Position numbers and translations under genes: made by a program. The notes under the pieces were generated by a model. It was given only the letters and a program-made list of their open reading frames with translations, did not search any database and was not told the DNA's origin. A stretch of 64,000 nucleotides of DNA from an uncultured Pelagibacteraceae bacterium (GTDB taxonomy: Bacteria; Pseudomonadota; Alphaproteobacteria; Pelagibacterales; Pelagibacteraceae): assembly GCA_902629285.1 (NCBI GenBank), contig CACOQN010000001.1, positions 106,642 through 170,641 of the forward strand. Direction: 5' to 3'. Positions 3,392 through 48,253 of this stretch are shown here, piece after piece. How positions within the stretch are numbered: position 1 is the stretch's first letter; each line of letters opens with the position of its first letter.

Positions 3392-5457
3392 TAATGAGTG
3401 TCGATTAGAGAAAAATTAACATAGTTGTTGAACGTTTTACACATCATTTGGATTAGTTCCAGTCTATTTTTCTTTATGATTGGATCGTCTTCGTTTACAA
3501 TTACATTATCAAAAAAATCAAAAACTTCTCTTTTGACACTAGCTAGATTGTCCAATGTTTGAACATAATTTTCATCTTTATTTATCCTTGAAAAATATTT
3601 CTTTAACTCACTAATTTTTTTAAATAGGTTCTTTTCTAACTCAGTTTTAAAAATACCAGGATCAGTTGTATTTGATAATTCTATTTTATCATTTTTTAAC
3701 TCACCATCTAAAATGTTTGAGGCTCGTTTATAACTTGCAATAATATCTAAACCATCTGGTTTGTTAATAATTTTATTTAAATGTTTAGCTTTATTAAAAA
3801 TAATTACAGATTGATCTAAGTTAAAAAAACTGGTTGATGCTTGAATTATATCATTTCTAATATTTTGTTCCTTCATGTAATATTTTAATCTATCCATTAA
3901 AAAATCTGATAATTCTTTTTGTAAAGATTGGTTATCAATTTCAAAACCTTGATCTAAATACAGGCTTGAAGAATAATTCATTAGATCTTTTATTTTAAAA
4001 TCTTTTTTATTTTCAACAATTATTCTTATTACACCTAATGCTAATCTTCTTAGAGCATATGGATCTTTAGAACTTGTTGGCTTTTGATTTAAACCAAAAA
4101 AACCAACTAAAGTATCTATCTTATCAGCTAAAGAAAGGGCTATGCTAAATGGTTTTTTGGGGACTCTTGAGCCTGGACCTGTGGGTAAATATTGCTCACT
4201 TATGGCCAAAGACAGATCTTTATCAAAACCTTGTACATTAGCAAAATAACCTCCCATAACACCTTGGAGTTCTGGAAATTCACCCACAAGTTCTGATAAT
4301 AAATCAACCTTACAAATTGATGCTGATAATTCAACTTTTTCTTTACTGATTAAAAGTTCATCAGATATCATTCCACCCAATTTTCTCATTCTTTGGGCTT
4401 TATCAAAATAACTTCCTAATCCTCTAAAAAAATTCATTGATTTTAAATCAGTAACTTTTTTGACCATATTTTGAGATCTATCTTTTTTCCAAAAAAATTC
4501 TGCATCACTTAATCTTGCCTCAACCACTCTTTCATTTCCTAATTTAATTAATCCCTTTTTATCTTTTTTGTTTGAAACAACTAAAAATTCATTGGTAATA
4601 TTTTCTTTATTATCAAATATAGGAAAATATTTTTGATGGTATTGCATGGTAATAATTAATATTTCTTTTGGAATATTTAAAAATTTCTTATTAAATTCAC
4701 AGAGAAGTATATTTGGTTGGTCTGTTAAATCTACAACCTCGTGAAGTAATTTAGGATTTTGCTGAATCTTAATATTTTTATTTTTTAATATATTATTGAA
4801 TTTTTTTTCAATTAACTTTTTTCTTTCATTGTGATCAATAATAATATCAATTTTTTTAAAAAAACTTTTATAATTTTTAAATTCTAAAAACGACTTTTTA
4901 TTTTCCTCAAATTCTTTATCAACAAAAGTTGAATTAGAGGATGTTAAGTGGTGAAAACTAAAATTTAATTTTTTTTTATCAAATACAGCTAATATTGATT
5001 TTAATGGTCTCCCCCAATTTAGATCATAATTTCCCCAATACATTGAATTTTTCCATTGAATTCTATTCAATAAAATTGGGATAAATTCCTCTAATAATTG
5101 ATGTGTGTGCAATTTTTTTGATCTTGTCTTGAAAAAATAAAATTGTCCTTTATCGGTTTTCTTTTGGTAGAGATCCTTTTTTAAGATTTTATTTGACCTA
5201 ACAAACCCCTCTAGTGCTACCTCTGGTGACTTAATATTTGGACCTTTAATCTCCTCAGATTTTAGTACTACATTTTTTTGAACACCTTGAAACAATACCA
5301 CTAGTCTGTTTGGTGTTGAGTATGATGAGCTTTTTTTAAATAAAATTGATTTTTCTAAAAATAAATCATTAAAACTTTTAAGCAAGTTTTCTCTTAAATT
5401 TTGTTGAAGATTTGAAGGCATTTCTTCACTAAATAATTCTAAAAAAAACTCCGACAT
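3391..5457 (-). CDS. glyS: Glycyl-tRNA synthetase beta subunit
   Basis: 688 aa; LFSEEMPSNLQ N-terminus, ELQGVMGGYFA, DKIDTLVGFF motifs; next to glyQ. Confidence 0.95.
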   Translation of the reverse strand: MSEFFLELFSEEMPSNLQQNLRENLLKSFNDLFLEKSILFKKSSSYSTPNRLVVLFQGVQKNVVLKSEEIKGPNIKSPEVALEGFVRSNKILKKDLYQKKTDKGQFYFFKTRSKKLHTHQLLEEFIPILLNRIQWKNSMYWGNYDLNWGRPLKSILAVFDKKKLNFSFHHLTSSNSTFVDKEFEENKKSFLEFKNYKSFFKKIDIIIDHNERKKLIEKKFNNILKNKNIKIQQNPKLLHEVVDLTDQPNILLCEFNKKFLNIPKEILIITMQYHQKYFPIFDNKENITNEFLVVSNKKDKKGLIKLGNERVVEARLSDAEFFWKKDRSQNMVKKVTDLKSMNFFRGLGSYFDKAQRMRKLGGMISDELLISKEKVELSASICKVDLLSELVGEFPELQGVMGGYFANVQGFDKDLSLAISEQYLPTGPGSRVPKKPFSIALSLADKIDTLVGFFGLNQKPTSSKDPYALRRLALGVIRIIVENKKDFKIKDLMNYSSSLYLDQGFEIDNQSLQKELSDFLMDRLKYYMKEQNIRNDIIQASTSFFNLDQSVIIFNKAKHLNKIINKPDGLDIIASYKRASNILDGELKNDKIELSNTTDPGIFKTELEKNLFKKISELKKYFSRINKDENYVQTLDNLASVKREVFDFFDNVIVNEDDPIIKKNRLELIQMMCKTFNNYVNFSLIDTH

Positions 5458-16615: not shown

Positions 16616-17509
16616 ATGAGCGCAACAATAAGTAATAATCTGCCAACCCTTTCTAATGAAGGTGGGCTATCTGCATATTTAGAGCAGATTAAAAAATTCC
16701 CGATGTTAGCTGCAGAAGAGGAATATATGCTAGCAAAAAATTGGAAAACGACTGGGAATATTAAAGCTGCAGAAAAACTAGTCACTAGTCACTTAAGATT
16801 AGTTGCAAAGATTGCTATGGGCTACAAAGGATATGGTTTACCTATCAATGAAATGATTTCTGAGGGAAATGTAGGTCTCATGCAAGCTGTTAAGAAATTT
16901 GAACCAGAAAAGGGTTTTAGATTGGCAACTTATGCAATGTGGTGGATTAAGGCTTCTATTCAAGAATATATTTTAAGATCTTGGAGTCTTGTAAAAATTG
17001 GAACTACTACTGCTCAAAAAAAATTATTTTTTAATTTAAAAAAAATTAAAAATCAAATTTCTCCAGAAACTGAAGGAGACTTAAGAGATGAGCACGTTAA
17101 TCATATCGCTAATGAGCTTGATGTAAGTAAAGAAGAAGTCGTTTCAATGAATAGAAGACTCTCTGGAAAGGAATTCTCCCTAAATGCCCAAGTTGGGGAA
17201 GATGGTGATGAATGGCAAGATTGGTTGGTTGATAAAGAACTTGATCATGACTTAAAATTTGCTCACCACGAGGAAATGGAACAAAGAAAAGATTTATTAA
17301 AAGACTCTATTAAAGTTCTTAACGATAGAGAAAGAGAAATTTTATACTCAAGAAGACTAAACGATGACCCAACTACACTAGAAGATTTAAGTAAAAAATA
17401 CAAAATTAGCAGAGAAAGAGTTAGACAAATAGAAAACAAAGCATTTGAAAAACTCCAAAAGCATATGCTTCTTTTAGCTAAATCAAAAAATCTTTTACCC
17501 GCAAACTAA
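16616..17509 (+). CDS. rpoH: RNA polymerase sigma-32 factor
   Basis: [57 protein letters not shown]-terminal region 4 helix-turn-helix. Confidence 0.95.
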
Positions 17510-41558: not shown

Positions 41559-41635
<77 letters not shown>

Positions 41636-41744
41636 ATTTCATAATAACAAATTTTTTTTGAATTAAAAATTTTAAGCCACTAAAATCGTTATTCATTGAT
41701 ATTTAACATAAAAACTATAATCTTGAATACAATTTTAAAAATTC

Positions 41745-42698
41745 ATGAATATTCTAATTACAGGTTGTGCTGGATTTATTGGTTATTCCCTCGCAACAAA
41801 ACTATTAAAAAATAAGGAAATTAAATTATTTGGATTTGATAATTTAAATAAATTTTATTCAGTAAAACTTAAGAAAAAAAGACTATCAAACTTAAAAAAA
41901 AATAAAAATTTTAAATTCTATAAAATTGATCTAACTAACAAAAAAAAATTATCAAACTTATTTCAAAATGAAAAAATTGATATTATATTTCATTTTGCTG
42001 CACAAGCTGGGGTAAGATATGTATCCTCACATCCTGAAAAATTTATAAAAAGTAACATACTCGGTTTTCATAATCTGTTAAATACATCAAAAAATTATAA
42101 TATTAAAAAATTTTTTTATGCATCTTCTAGCTCTGTATATGGTGACTCTAATAAATTTCCAGTTGATGAAAAATCGAGTTTAAATCCTAAAAATATTTAT
42201 GGATTAAGTAAAAAATTAAATGAAGAATATATTAAAATAAATTTTAATAAAAAAACAAAATATATTGGTCTTAGATTTTTTACTGTTTATGGAGAATGGG
42301 GCAGACCAGACATGTTAATTCTTAAGTATCTAGATTATGCTAAAAAAAATAAAACATTATATCTAAATAACTCTGGCAATCACTGGAGAGATTTTACATA
42401 TATAGATGATGTAACGAAAATATTGTCTAAACTAATTAGTCAGGAATTTAAAAAAAATGAAATATATAACATATGTAGCAACCGACCTATATTAATCAAA
42501 AATTTAATATCATATTTAATTAAAAAAACTGGTTATGATAAAATTAAAAATGTAGATTTAAACAATTTTGAAGTTTTCAAAACCCACGGTAAAAATCTAA
42601 AGTTAAGAAAAAAAATTAATTTCTCAAAATATTCTAATTTTAAAAATAATGTTGATAAAACAATTTTTTGGTTCAAAAAATACAATCATCTTATTTGA
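41745..42698 (+). CDS. NAD-dependent epimerase (UDP-glucuronate 4-epimerase-like)
   Basis: ITGCAGFIGYSLA; FHFAAQAGVRYVSSHPEKF; RFFTVYGEWGRPDM; WRDFTYIDDV. Confidence 0.85.
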   Translation: MNILITGCAGFIGYSLATKLLKNKEIKLFGFDNLNKFYSVKLKKKRLSNLKKNKNFKFYKIDLTNKKKLSNLFQNEKIDIIFHFAAQAGVRYVSSHPEKFIKSNILGFHNLLNTSKNYNIKKFFYASSSSVYGDSNKFPVDEKSSLNPKNIYGLSKKLNEEYIKINFNKKTKYIGLRFFTVYGEWGRPDMLILKYLDYAKKNKTLYLNNSGNHWRDFTYIDDVTKILSKLISQEFKKNEIYNICSNRPILIKNLISYLIKKTGYDKIKNVDLNNFEVFKTHGKNLKLRKKINFSKYSNFKNNVDKTIFWFKKYNHLI

Positions 42699-42724
42699 AA
42701 ATTTATTTATAAAATTCAAAATTT

Positions 42725-43402
42725 ATGATAAAAAAAATTGGTAATCCAGAAGTTTATAATAAAGAGTTAATTTCAAAAATAAAAAATATAGAAATTGATC
42801 TATATTACATCAAAAATAAATCTGATTTTAGAGAAAAAATAATAAACAACATAAATCCTGAGGATACTGTATTGGATATAGGAAAAGGTATGAGGGAAAA
42901 ATTTTTACAAATAAAATCAAATAAAGTTGAAACCCTAGACGTAAATGAATATGAGGATTATCCAGATATAATTTTTGATTTATGTGACGAGTTAGATAAA
43001 AGTTTATATGACAAATATGATAAGATTATCTGTCTTGCTATCCTAGAGCATGTTTATAATCCATTTCTTGCAGTCGAAAATTTAAAAAAAATGCTTAAGA
43101 ATAATGGTGTGATTTATGGTTATGTTCCTTACTTAAATTATTATCACGCACCTAATGATTTAAAATTTCAAGATTATTTTAGATTTTCGAAGGATGCTCT
43201 TACATATTTATTTAAAGATTTTTCAAATGTAAAATTGTTTCCAATAAGAGGTAGGATTTCTGCCCCGTTAAATATAATGTTTGCAGGAAGGTGGAAAAAA
43301 TATATTGAAAAAACATCTATAAATATTTTTCTAGATAAATTAAGCTCGGATGAAAAAAATATAAAACAATGCAGTGGTTTTAATTTTATAATTAATAAGT
43401 AG
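42725..43402 (+). CDS. Class I SAM-dependent methyltransferase
   Basis: DTVLDIGKGM, KIICLAILEHVYNPFLAVENLKKMLKNNGVIYGYVPY. Confidence 0.75.
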   Translation: MIKKIGNPEVYNKELISKIKNIEIDLYYIKNKSDFREKIINNINPEDTVLDIGKGMREKFLQIKSNKVETLDVNEYEDYPDIIFDLCDELDKSLYDKYDKIICLAILEHVYNPFLAVENLKKMLKNNGVIYGYVPYLNYYHAPNDLKFQDYFRFSKDALTYLFKDFSNVKLFPIRGRISAPLNIMFAGRWKKYIEKTSINIFLDKLSSDEKNIKQCSGFNFIINK

Positions 43403-44109: not shown

Positions 44110-45507
44110 CTATAAGTTTTTTGTTATATCCTCTGTCATTTTTTTTGCATCAGCAAATAACATAAGAGTATTTTCCTTATAGAACAGATCATTATCAATT
44201 CCTGCATATCCTGGCGAAAGGCTCCTTTTAACAAATAATACTGATTTACATTTTTCAACATCTAAAACTGGCATTCCGTAAATAGGACTTTGTGGATCAG
44301 TTTTTGCCACTGGATTTGTTACATCGTTCGCACCAATGACAAATGCTACATCTGCATTTGCAAAATCATTATTAATCTCCTCAAGTTCAAAGACTTCGTC
44401 ATATGGAACATTTGCCTCAGCTAGAAGAACATTCATATGTCCTGGCATTCTTCCAGCAACAGGATGAATGGCATATGATACTTTAATGTCATTTTTCTTT
44501 AAAGTATCTACCATTTCTCTTAATGCGTGTTGAGCCTGGGCAACTGCCATTCCATAACCAGGAACAATTATTACTGATGACGCATTTTTCATCAAAAAAG
44601 CGGCGTCATCTGCATTTCCACTTTTAACAGGTCTTTGCTCTTTATTTGAATTATTTGATGTTTCCTCGGTTGCCCCAAATCCACCAAGGATAACATTAAA
44701 GAAAGAACGATTCATTCCTTTGCACATAATATATGATAAAATTGCTCCAGAAGATCCCACGAGAGCACCTGTTATTATTAAAGCTGTATTTTCTAACGTA
44801 AAACCAATCCCTGCCGCTGCCCACCCAGAGTATGAATTAAGCATAGATATAACTACAGGCATGTCTGCGCCTCCAATTGGGATTATTAAAAGAAAACCAA
44901 TTAAAAAAGAAATACCTAAAAGTATCCAAAATAAATTAGAAGATTGTGTTATACATAATAAATAAATTAAAATAATTATCGAAATTAAAATTAATGCATT
45001 TAAAATATGTTGACCTTTAAATGTAATAGGTGAACCAGACATAATTCCTTGCAATTTTAAGAAAGCTATTACTGAACCAGAAAAGGTAATAGCTCCAACA
45101 GCAGCTCCTATTGACATTTCAATCAAGCTTCCAAGTTTAATTCTTCCTGGTAATCCAAGATTAAATGCCTCAGGATTTAAAAAAGCTGATATAGCAACAA
45201 ATACTGCAGCCAATCCTACCAAGCTATGAAATCCAGCAACTAGTTCTGGCATAGCTGTCATAGGTATTTTATAGGCTATGAATGCCCCTATTGAGCCACC
45301 CACAAGGATAAATACCAATACAAAAATAAATCCAGTTGAAAAATTACCTGTGGACAAAAATGTTACTGTTATAGCAATTATCATTCCTAAGATCCCAAAG
45401 AAATTACCTTGTCTTGATGTTTCAGGTGACGACAAACCTCTCAGAGCAAGAATAAACAATACCCCTGAAACTAAATAGAAAATTGCAGATAAATTTGCCG
45501 AGATCAT
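44110..45507 (-). CDS. pntB: NAD(P) transhydrogenase beta subunit
   Basis: PGYGMAVAQAQHALREM; IHPVAGRMPGHMNVLLAEANVPYDEVFELEEIN. Confidence 0.97.
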   Translation of the reverse strand: MISANLSAIFYLVSGVLFILALRGLSSPETSRQGNFFGILGMIIAITVTFLSTGNFSTGFIFVLVFILVGGSIGAFIAYKIPMTAMPELVAGFHSLVGLAAVFVAISAFLNPEAFNLGLPGRIKLGSLIEMSIGAAVGAITFSGSVIAFLKLQGIMSGSPITFKGQHILNALILISIIILIYLLCITQSSNLFWILLGISFLIGFLLIIPIGGADMPVVISMLNSYSGWAAAGIGFTLENTALIITGALVGSSGAILSYIMCKGMNRSFFNVILGGFGATEETSNNSNKEQRPVKSGNADDAAFLMKNASSVIIVPGYGMAVAQAQHALREMVDTLKKNDIKVSYAIHPVAGRMPGHMNVLLAEANVPYDEVFELEEINNDFANADVAFVIGANDVTNPVAKTDPQSPIYGMPVLDVEKCKSVLFVKRSLSPGYAGIDNDLFYKENTLMLFADAKKMTEDITKNL

Positions 45508-45815
45508 TATTTATCCTTTTTCTTTTTTTTATACATTGCTAACATTCTTTGAGTTACTAGAAATCCTCCAAAAATATTTATTGCTGCTAATGCAATTGCT
45601 AAAAAACCAAAAATACTTGATTTATTAAATACATTTTCAAAATTTCCCGACAAACCTGCAATAATAGCTCCAACTATGATAACTGAGGAAATTGCGTTTG
45701 TAACTGACATCAATGGAGTATGTAAGGAAGGGGTAACACTCCAAACAACATAATATCCAACAAAAATTGATAGGATAAATATACTTAGTCTGAATATTAA
45801 AGGATCAATTTCCAT
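45507..45815 (-). CDS. NAD(P) transhydrogenase alpha subunit, membrane part
   Basis: SVTPSLHTPLMSVTNAISSVIIVGA. Confidence 0.95.
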   Translation of the reverse strand: MEIDPLIFRLSIFILSIFVGYYVVWSVTPSLHTPLMSVTNAISSVIIVGAIIAGLSGNFENVFNKSSIFGFLAIALAAINIFGGFLVTQRMLAMYKKKKKDK

Positions 45816-45818
45816 AGC

Positions 45819-46907
45819 TTATTTTATTAATGTATTTTTAATAATTTCATCATCTAAATTAATATTTAATTTTTTACTTTCTTTTTCGATTAAATTATCA
45901 ACAAAATTGAAAACATTTTTGGCGTATAAACTTGAAGCTGAAATTGGAAGTTTATTTAAAATATTACTTTCACCCATAATTTTTACTCCATTTCTTTCTA
46001 CAATATTATCAACTTCTGTATATGCGGTATTACCTCCCTGTATCGCTGCTAAATCATAAATAAAAGATCCTGCTTGCATATTATTTATCATATCATCTTT
46101 TATTATTATTGGTGCTTTCTTTCCTGGGATTAAAGCTGTACAAATTACAATATCAATCTTTTTTAAAGTTTCAGACAAAAGTGTTTCTTGTTTTTTTTTA
46201 AAATCTTCTGAGGTCTCTTTAGCGTAACCACCTTCAGTTTCTAAATTTTCTGACCCCTCCACAGTTAAGAATTTTCCACCTAAACTTTCAACTTGTTCTT
46301 TAGAAGCCATCCTTACATCTGTCGCGTAAACAATCGCTCCCATCCTTTTTGCAGTAGCAATGGCTTGTAGTCCTGCAACACCTGCACCAACAATTAAAAC
46401 CTTAGCAGCAGGCACTGTGCCTGCAGCTGTCATCATCATTGGTATAGCCTTTTTAAAATTTGCAAACGACTCTATGACAGCTTTGTAACCAGCAAGATTA
46501 GCTTGCGAAGACAATATATCCATAGACTGAGCTCGAGTTATTCTTGGAAGCAATTCTAAAGAAAATAAATTAACTTTTTTTTGTGCTAATTTTTCTAATC
46601 TTTCCTTGTTTGTATAGGGATTTAAGACCCCAATAAGAGTTTGATTTTCTTTAATTAAAGAAATTTTTTCGTCAGGCAACAAACCCAATTGCACAATAAT
46701 ATTTGAGTGGGAAATAACCTCATTGTCATCTTTTATTATCTTTACTCCTAAATCCAAAAATTCTTTATCTTTAATTCCAAGATGCTGACCATAATTTTCA
46801 CTTAAACAAACCTCAAAGCCTAAAGAAGAATACTTTTTTACAATCTCAGGAGTAATTGAAATTCTTTTTTCATTATTTTGATTTTCTGAAATCGAACCAA
46901 TTATCAT
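45819..46907 (-). CDS. pntA: NAD(P) transhydrogenase alpha subunit, soluble part
   Basis: MSITPEIVKKYSSLGFEV-type N-terminus; ILSSQANLAGYKAVIESF; VLIVGAGVAGLQAIATAKRMGAIVYATDVR. Confidence 0.96.
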   Translation of the reverse strand: MIIGSISENQNNEKRISITPEIVKKYSSLGFEVCLSENYGQHLGIKDKEFLDLGVKIIKDDNEVISHSNIIVQLGLLPDEKISLIKENQTLIGVLNPYTNKERLEKLAQKKVNLFSLELLPRITRAQSMDILSSQANLAGYKAVIESFANFKKAIPMMMTAAGTVPAAKVLIVGAGVAGLQAIATAKRMGAIVYATDVRMASKEQVESLGGKFLTVEGSENLETEGGYAKETSEDFKKKQETLLSETLKKIDIVICTALIPGKKAPIIIKDDMINNMQAGSFIYDLAAIQGGNTAYTEVDNIVERNGVKIMGESNILNKLPISASSLYAKNVFNFVDNLIEKESKKLNINLDDEIIKNTLIK

Positions 46908-46914
46908 ATGAATT

Positions 46915-47025
46915 TTATAATAAGAAAAATGCCATTAAAATTAAAACAACTATAACAGCAATTGTTCCCCACAAAACAAATTTTGTAAAATTATTCCAAG
47001 TATTTTTATGGTTCTGATCATCCAT
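46915..47025 (-). CDS. aa3-type cytochrome c oxidase subunit IV-like small membrane protein
   Basis: 36-aa ORF absent from the supplied track: MDDQNHKNTWNNFTKFVLWGTIAVIVVLILMAFFLL; position upstream of pntA is typical in alphaproteobacteria. Confidence 0.6.
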   Translation of the reverse strand: MDDQNHKNTWNNFTKFVLWGTIAVIVVLILMAFFLL

Positions 47026-47029
47026 AAAA

Positions 47030-47155
47030 TTATTTTTGTCTTGCTTTAAATTTAGGGTTTGATTTATTTATTATATAAACTCTACCTCTTCTTCTAACGA
47101 GTTTAGAATTTAAATCTCTTTTTTTTATTGATTTTAGTGAGCTTTTTATTTTCAT
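47030..47155 (-). CDS. rpmJ: 50S ribosomal protein L36 (cysteine-free type)
   Basis: [41 protein letters not shown]; the track's longer start at 47212 lies inside 5S rRNA. Confidence 0.92.
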
Positions 47156-47167
47156 AATATTATTGTA

Positions 47168-47283
47168 TGCCGGCAACGTCCTACTCTTCCGTGCCTTAAG
47201 ACAAAGTACCATCGGCGCTGAAAGGCTTGACTTCCGAGTTCGGAATGGGATCGGGTATAACTCTTTCGCAATAATTACCGGCC
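47168..47283 (-). rRNA. rrf: 5S ribosomal RNA
   Basis: Minus strand TACCCGATCCCATTCCGAACTCGGAAGTCAAGCC...CAGCGCCGATGGTACT...GAGTAGGACGTTGCCGGC; terminal stem GCCGGTAA/TTGCCGGC. Confidence 0.95.
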
Positions 47284-47288
47284 AGGGA

Positions 47289-47316
47289 TTTATAACTAAT
47301 AATTAATACTTGTAAA
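47289..47316 (-). promoter_or_regulatory. Sigma70-like promoter for 5S rRNA
   Basis: Minus strand TTTACA-16 nt-TATAAA, ending about 6 nt before the 5S 5' end; -35 lies in the last codons of the upstream CDS. Confidence 0.6.
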
Positions 47317-48253
47317 CATGATTTTTATTTAAAAAATCCATGTATGTGTGAAAAATAGCCTTTTCAAGTTTGGTTTTTGGCTTCCATCCGTAGCTCTTAG
47401 CAAGATTGGTATTTAGTAATTTTCTAGGAGTTCCGTTAGGCTTAGATTTATCATATCTTATATAAATTTTCTTATTTGGTATAATTACCTTTCCTATAAT
47501 TCTAACATAGTCTTTAATTCTAAAATCTACACCTGTCCCGATATTAACTATTGTTTCTCTAATTTTTTTATTCATAAAAAAAACACAGGCATCTGCAAGA
47601 TCATCAACATAAATCATTTCTCTTCTTGCGTTTCCGTTTCCCCATAAAACTAATTTTTTTTTATTATAAATTTTATATTCATGAATTTTTTTTATAAGAG
47701 CTGGAAAAAAATGTGAATGTGAATCATTATATTTGTCATTTGGACCAAAAGTATTAGTCGGCATTATGCATTTAAAGTTTGTATTAAATTGATTGTTATA
47801 ACTTTCACACATTTTAATACCTGCTATTTTAGCAATAGCATAAGCATCGTTTGTTTTTTCTAATTCGCTAGTTAACAAATATTCTTCTTTAATAGGTTGC
47901 TTACAATTTCTAGGATATACACAACTTGATCCTAAAAACAAAAGATCTCTCACACCTGCTCTGTAAGCAGCATCTATTAAATTAGTTTGAATAACTAGAT
48001 TTTGATAAATCATATCAGCTTTATACTTTTCATTTAGATTAATTCCTCCTACCTTCGCTGCGGCAATGAAAATAAATTTTGGTTTAATTTTTTTTAAAAA
48101 ATTATAAACTTTATTTTGATTTGTAAGATCTAGTTTAGATTTACTTGCAGTTATAATATTTCTGTAGCCTTTTTGGCGTAATCTTCTGCAAATTGCACTA
48201 CCAACTAAACCCTTATGTCCAGCAACGTATATTTTAGAATTTAAATTTATCAT
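47303..48253 (-). CDS. fcl: GDP-L-fucose synthase-like SDR (GDP-4-keto-6-deoxy-mannose epimerase/reductase)
   Basis: VAGHKGLVGSAICRRL; AAAKVGGI; LFLGSSCVYPRNCKQPIKEEYLLT; AIAKIAGIKMCESY; NTFGPNDKY. Confidence 0.9.
   Translation of the reverse strand: MINLNSKIYVAGHKGLVGSAICRRLRQKGYRNIITASKSKLDLTNQNKVYNFLKKIKPKFIFIAAAKVGGINLNEKYKADMIYQNLVIQTNLIDAAYRAGVRDLLFLGSSCVYPRNCKQPIKEEYLLTSELEKTNDAYAIAKIAGIKMCESYNNQFNTNFKCIMPTNTFGPNDKYNDSHSHFFPALIKKIHEYKIYNKKKLVLWGNGNARREMIYVDDLADACVFFMNKKIRETIVNIGTGVDFRIKDYVRIIGKVIIPNKKIYIRYDKSKPNGTPRKLLNTNLAKSYGWKPKTKLEKAIFHTYMDFLNKNHVYKY

Follow-up and report, generated by a model that had tools for sequence, protein, structure and literature searches.

Few groups of cells in the ocean are as abundant as the SAR11 bacteria, whose ribosomes are made from a single, split rRNA operon. 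The DNA between the parts of this operon is exchanged repeatedly, which raises two questions: how the 5S rRNA gene is expressed beside upstream DNA that is continually replaced, for which no explanation was found in the literature searched, and how it came to stand there. The region concerned, hypervariable region 2 (HVR2), was the subject of Wilhelm et al. and lies between the 23S and 5S genes in 'Candidatus Pelagibacter ubique' HTCC1062 (PMC2217521); the same layout is known from LD12 single cells (PMC4053759) and from the isolate LSUCC0530 (PMC6018831).

The DNA analysed was a stretch of 64 kb (the window), the right end of which is the end of contig C1 (170,641 bp) of a 1.31 Mb draft genome (36 contigs, 94.5% complete). 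It holds a single complete 5S rRNA gene on the minus strand at 47168-47282 (RF00001, 84.6 bits, E 1.3e-16, full model 1-120). The first-pass annotation, made from the letters of the window, had recognised the gene as complete but set its end at 47283, 1 nt away from that given by the profile search. Neither a 23S nor a 16S gene was found within the window, and the statement that no 23S lies within 16.7 kb upstream of the 5S is true, though limited by the contig end, at which the suggested search further to the right also stops. Over the whole draft there is one 5S, one 23S (C10:38049-40801) and one 16S (C10:36184-37658). The order on contig C10 is 16S-tRNAIle-tRNAAla-23S, and the remaining 16.6 kb of the contig beyond the 23S are low in GC. 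A second complete 16S-23S-5S operon, which had been named as the observation that would speak against a detached 5S, was looked for in the draft and none was found.

The boundary at the 5S gene is as sharp as had been described. On one side rpmJ, encoding ribosomal protein bL36 (47030-47155; assigned from its sequence and from a gene order conserved in relatives), begins 12 nt after the 5S on the same strand. It is followed, also on the minus strand, by the pntA RNA motif (46968-47029; RF01810, 82.8 bits), by pntA for the transhydrogenase alpha subunit (45819-46907; PF05222 and PF01262) and by the pnt 4TM and beta subunit genes (44110-45815; PF12769 and PF02233). On the other side is a gene for a NAD-dependent epimerase (47303-48253, minus strand, co-directional with the 5S; PF01370, 1.7e-61), the C-terminus of which resembles GDP-fucose synthase and the stop codon of which, at 47303, is 20 bp before the 5S. 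The GC content is about 30% on the core side of the 5S gene and about 20% on the island side.

From 47303 to the contig end at 64000 extends the 5S-side part of a surface-polysaccharide island, recognised by its Pfam content, low GC and lack of conservation. Pfam searches bore out the earlier reading of this interval as filled with sugar genes: glycosyltransferases, epimerases, a GDP-mannose dehydratase, a Wzy-like protein, an FkbM methyltransferase and a DegT aminotransferase were found, and the 23S-side part on C10 carries NeuB, a carbamoyltransferase, LuxE and LuxC homologues and others. Conservation was compared over 43 SAR11 loci with at least 20 kb of sequence each. The pnt genes, pntA among them, were present in all 43, with median identities of 81-95%. 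Ten island genes reached 60% identity in only 0-5 of the 43 loci each, and the epimerase next to the 5S reached at least 60% in 3, which disposes of the possibility, also named beforehand as contrary evidence, that the sugar genes are syntenic and conserved in close relatives.

Four features that define HVR2 were found: the sole 5S at one border, the sole 16S-23S at the other, low-GC polysaccharide genes between, and variable content within conserved flanks. The 16S-23S border is on a different contig, and the two halves of the island, at the ends of C1 and C10, are not physically joined in the draft; together they give a length of at least 33 kb (16.7 kb on C1 and 16.6 kb on C10), compared with the length near 50 kb that is typical of HVR2 and with mostly 27-62 kb in relatives. 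The genome is that of a member of Pelagibacteraceae (SAR11) with a split rRNA operon, and the window spans the right-hand border of its HVR2. The proposal that the window represents the 5S side of the island between 23S and 5S is right, and this arrangement has already been published (PMC2217521, PMC4053759, PMC6018831, PMC7318151), so that the detached 5S adds a further genome to a known phenomenon.

A two-box element of the sigma70 type was observed immediately before the 5S in 119 distinct loci of the family aligned on the 5S start, 80 of which were fetched via PntA and the rest from other searches. The commonest form is TTTACA-N16/17-TATAAA; the -35 box is TTTACA or TTGACT/A-like, the -10 box is TATAAR or TATAAA/G/C, and the latter ends 9-10 nt before the GG of the 5S 5' strand. 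The predicted -10 box of the window (TATAAA, 47289-47294, minus strand) is 6 nt before the 5S start, in the same place as in the 119 loci, and the predicted -35 box (TTTACA, 47311-47316, minus strand) is separated from it by a 16-nt spacer. As the -35 box is inside the last codons of the epimerase gene, the island's own gene runs into the putative promoter.

The hexamers hardly vary, whereas identity is at background level in the spacer and further upstream than about -45. Among the 67 loci with a 16-base spacer, pairwise identities by position were 1.0, 1.0, 0.74, 1.0, 1.0 and 0.70 for the -35 box and 1.0, 1.0, 1.0, 0.91, 0.91 and 0.40 for the -10 box, so that most hexamer positions lie at 0.7-1.0 whereas nearly all spacer positions lie at about 0.33-0.55 and upstream positions at about 0.3-0.5. 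When the breakpoint was mapped across SAR11 loci, as had been suggested, it was located about 40-45 bp upstream of the 5S, at the outer edge of the promoter, and not at the 5S 5' end that had been taken as the reference point.

When a model was trained on loci of the window's genus alone, it separated those of other genera from upstream control windows with an AUC of 0.998, and 91% of the tested loci scored above the controls' 99th percentile; training on the other genera and testing on the window's genus gave 0.993 and 88%. The window's own promoter score has rank 91 of 119 (higher is better). The promoter was absent from six distinct loci of the sister family, the other family of the order, that have a linked 5S, where scores were at or below typical control values. 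Near-consensus promoters are common in AT-rich DNA (81 of 2419 control windows were within two mismatches of the consensus), and the claim of a promoter rests on position and conservation. A single-sequence promoter scan of the window did not list the site, because the scan demands T at the last -10 position.

The conserved element agrees with the pattern expected of a sigma70-type promoter, in which -35 and -10 hexamers are spaced by 16-18 bp and about 7 nt lead to the start site, and from this conservation we infer that RNA polymerase would use TTTACA-N16-TATAAA (47316-47289) and that transcription should start no more than about 1 nt from the 5' end of the mature 5S. A start at this point would mean that little or no 5' processing is needed and that the 5S is independent of the 23S operon and of the upstream island gene. 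No description of a SAR11 5S promoter was found in the searchable literature, although priority is not certain.

Downstream of the 5S, the start of rpmJ is at most a few tens of bases away in 85 of the 119 loci, in 31 it lies about 1 kb further on, and in nearly all loci a gene on the same strand (rpmJ, or an epimerase gene and then rpmJ) follows almost at once. This order agrees with that of Meyer et al., who found the gene before the pntA motif to be most often 5S or rmlB (PMC2704228). A gene of more than 200 codons directly follows the 5S in 30 loci, and 29 of these genes form one orthologous epimerase family. The division into core genes on one side and sugar genes on the other, which the first-pass annotation had drawn, is therefore correct for the window but not a rule, as 29 of 119 loci carry this epimerase between 5S and rpmJ. 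A scan of the interval between 5S and rpmJ in the window revealed no terminator-like site, and the folding of the 5S-rpmJ leader showed no structure beyond chance (z -0.7). The adjacent same-strand gene and the lack of a terminator-like site in the window suggest that the 5S is probably the first segment of an mRNA. The transcript would pass without termination into rpmJ, 12 nt on, or in a quarter of genomes into the epimerase gene first; the 3' end of the 5S would then have to come from cleavage or trimming, which would release the bL36 mRNA.

The epimerase between 5S and rpmJ (L011, L018, L024, L060 and 25 other loci) has 61-70% identity to the copy in G145 (L011) and is spread patchily over several genera, by repeated loss or gain. 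The idea that it is the same gene as the epimerase upstream of the 5S in the window was ruled out, the identity being only 21-26% in the top matches.

The other border was examined in 35 distinct sequences downstream of the 23S. Immediately after the 23S end stand 17 bases (TGCACTGAAAAAAATTT) that do not vary, apart from a single base in one locus. At position 18 T predominates, and from about base 20 identity has dropped to background; the sample is small on this side (35 loci). This tail of 17-18 bp is complementary to the 23S leader and extends the pre-23S stem, of which it forms the 3' arm, so the island appears to start where the pre-23S processing stem ends. The island would thus be replaceable up to two short elements, the 3' arm of this stem and the -35 box of the 5S promoter. 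A leader segment before the 23S, TATCAATATCTATATCC (L004, about 16990-17048), recurs in most split-family leaders. A motif resembling GATATTAAT after the 23S stem seemed recurrent by eye, but it was only weakly above composition-matched shuffles and is not claimed.

As the 23S of the 36-contig draft is on another contig than the 5S, the separation might be attributed to contigs that broke at the rRNA operon. The window itself has 16.7 kb of assembled sugar genes directly upstream of its 5S, in the single-contig relatives G003, G005, G001 and G007 the collinear 23S and 5S are likewise split, by 45-62 kb, and the same has been reported for isolates (PMC2217521, PMC6018831); an assembly artefact can be given practically no weight. 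Exactly one 5S was found in each of the 254 relatives' genomes having a 5S match. Where 23S and 5S are collinear on one contig in split-family relatives the gap is about 27-88 kb (G005 46 kb, G024 55 kb, G003 62 kb, G001 46 kb, G007 56 kb and G270 88 kb, for example); others are rearranged, and in none are the two genes adjacent. A more serious alternative to a dedicated promoter is that the 5S is made by read-through from a co-directional island operon, with its epimerase and glycosyltransferase genes, the boxes being chance matches in AT-rich DNA or part of a homologous flank kept by recombination. The gap between island gene and 5S is only 20 bp in the window, and the nearest upstream gene has the same direction as the 5S in 94 of 112 scorable loci, as read-through would require. 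The upstream gene is opposed in the remaining 18 of the 112, however, which rules out read-through from the island as the general way of producing 5S. Nor would a shared flank alone confine conservation to two hexamers at 16-17 bp spacing with spacer and flanks at background, and chance matches would not be expected to recur in other genera, as the hexamers do. Read-through is thus very improbable, and expression from the conserved promoter is preferred.

The history of the split was approached through the sister family. Six of its genomes have the 5S 90-98 bp after the 23S. The genes before the 16S match those in the window's genome, so the rRNA locus is the same in both families. After the 5S the DNA of G004 and G023 is again low in GC, and in G023 it encodes glycosyltransferases, sugar aminotransferases, epimerases and polysaccharide deacetylases. 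Going downstream from the sister-family 5S, rpmJ and pnt are reached after 54-55 kb, and in G027 pntA is reached after about 80 kb; just before rpmJ the order is tRNA-Val(GAC), a small ORF of about 43 codons, rpmJ. The sister-family island therefore lies between an intact 16S-23S-5S operon and tRNA-Val/rpmJ-pnt. In the split family, tRNA-Val(GAC) immediately precedes the 5S promoter in 13 of the 23 loci that come from genera other than the window's; within the window's genus it was not found in this position.

These gene orders bear on the usual wording, that the operon is 'split by' an island (PMC7318151), which would mean that the island was inserted between 23S and 5S of an otherwise unmoved operon and the 5S was left behind. 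On that account the ancestral 5S must have had the rpmJ side as its neighbour, and a further step is required for the sister family, the intact-operon genomes of which already have a sugar island between the rRNA operon and tRNA-Val/rpmJ/pnt; moreover, the 5S of the split family is exactly in the tRNA-Val/rpmJ gap. Simple insertion is consequently rather unlikely. Because the sister family has the same island beyond its intact 16S-23S-5S, a change of sides by the 5S is favoured instead. On this view the sister family would preserve the earlier state, in which the island followed the 3' end of an intact operon; a 5S gene would then have been set up anew beyond the island, in the gap between tRNA-Val(GAC) and rpmJ, and the operon copy lost. 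This is probable, on the basis of two families, a small sister-family sample (6-8 loci) and the usual assumption that an intact operon is ancestral. It also seems somewhat likelier than not that the crossing into this gap took place in the ancestor of Pelagibacteraceae, and that 5S and rpmJ are now a transcription unit of their own, driven by a leaderless promoter.

The small basic ORF of the sister family (L181 about 4840-4973, L176, L196, L198, L199) occupies the place of the split family's 5S, and no match to it was found in the split-family loci compared. The split-family 5S promoter might descend from the sister-family promoter before this ORF, as both are between tRNA-Val and the next gene, but their -35 regions differ (TTTACA before the 5S versus TTGTYTTTT before the small ORF and rpmJ). 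The window's genome has tRNA-Val(GAC)-like matches on C12 (L202) and C13 (L203).

Taken together, the data argue strongly for a model in which 16S-tRNAIle-tRNAAla-23S would be one transcription unit beyond the island, the 5S would be a separate unit on the window side, led by its own promoter and joined to rpmJ, the island would lie between two functional elements, and the 5S would have switched sides; as a whole this model is very likely. If it is true, the 5S is uncoupled from 16S/23S dosage and tied to bL36, and the pre-23S stem arm and the 5S promoter are short essential elements between which the island can be exchanged freely. The conserved promoter would offer a testable answer to how 5S is expressed despite repeated replacement of the DNA upstream, and it leads one to expect that 5S is controlled independently. 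Knowing exactly where the island ends matters for understanding how phage-receptor diversity is swapped at this locus without harm to the rRNA genes, and the gene order of the sister family calls for a revision of the customary description, in which the island was inserted between 23S and 5S.

HTCC1062, LD12 and LSUCC0530 share with the present locus the sole 16S-23S on one side, the sole 5S on the other, 27-88 kb of polysaccharide genes between and rpmJ-pntA after the 5S. A 5S promoter, the exact border elements and the position of the island in intact-operon relatives were not found described in the papers on their HVR2. The conserved promoter, the island borders on both sides and the revised history are thus candidate new points, as far as the literature was searched. 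A single intact rRNA operon has been reported for SAR11 subclades IV and V (PMC7318151, PMC3815206), which share their order with the sister family (f2); the linked operon of f2, which may correspond to subclade IV, agrees with that statement, and f2 is shown here to have the island downstream of the 5S. Unlinked rRNA genes in other bacteria are likewise broken operons in reduced genomes, but there it is typically the 16S that is apart from 23S-5S (PMC7761764), whereas here the 5S is detached from an intact 16S-23S unit in a free-living, streamlined lineage.

A 5S translocation has been described in the Arctic SAR11 uisw_092 (PMC12421898). The independent genome G017 (L164, L165) likewise has 23S and 5S far apart, 437 kb from each other and on opposite strands of one 966 kb contig; its 5S neighbourhood is otherwise normal, and this is either a rearrangement like that in uisw_092 or an assembly error. 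In G231 the two genes are 12 kb apart on opposite strands (C15, 558-13595), by inversion or misassembly. Missing or broken 23S genes in several complete relatives were rejected as biology, the matches ending at round coordinates (170001, 175000, 1050001, 345001), a pattern that fits blocks missing from the sequence data used.

The core side of the window contains a second, small variable spot at 41559-43402, after a tRNA-Met gene (41559-41635), with a GC content near 23%. Two genes there differ from relatives: the gene at 41745-42698 has a median identity of 29%, and the methyltransferase-like gene at 42725-43402 is present in none of the 43 loci.
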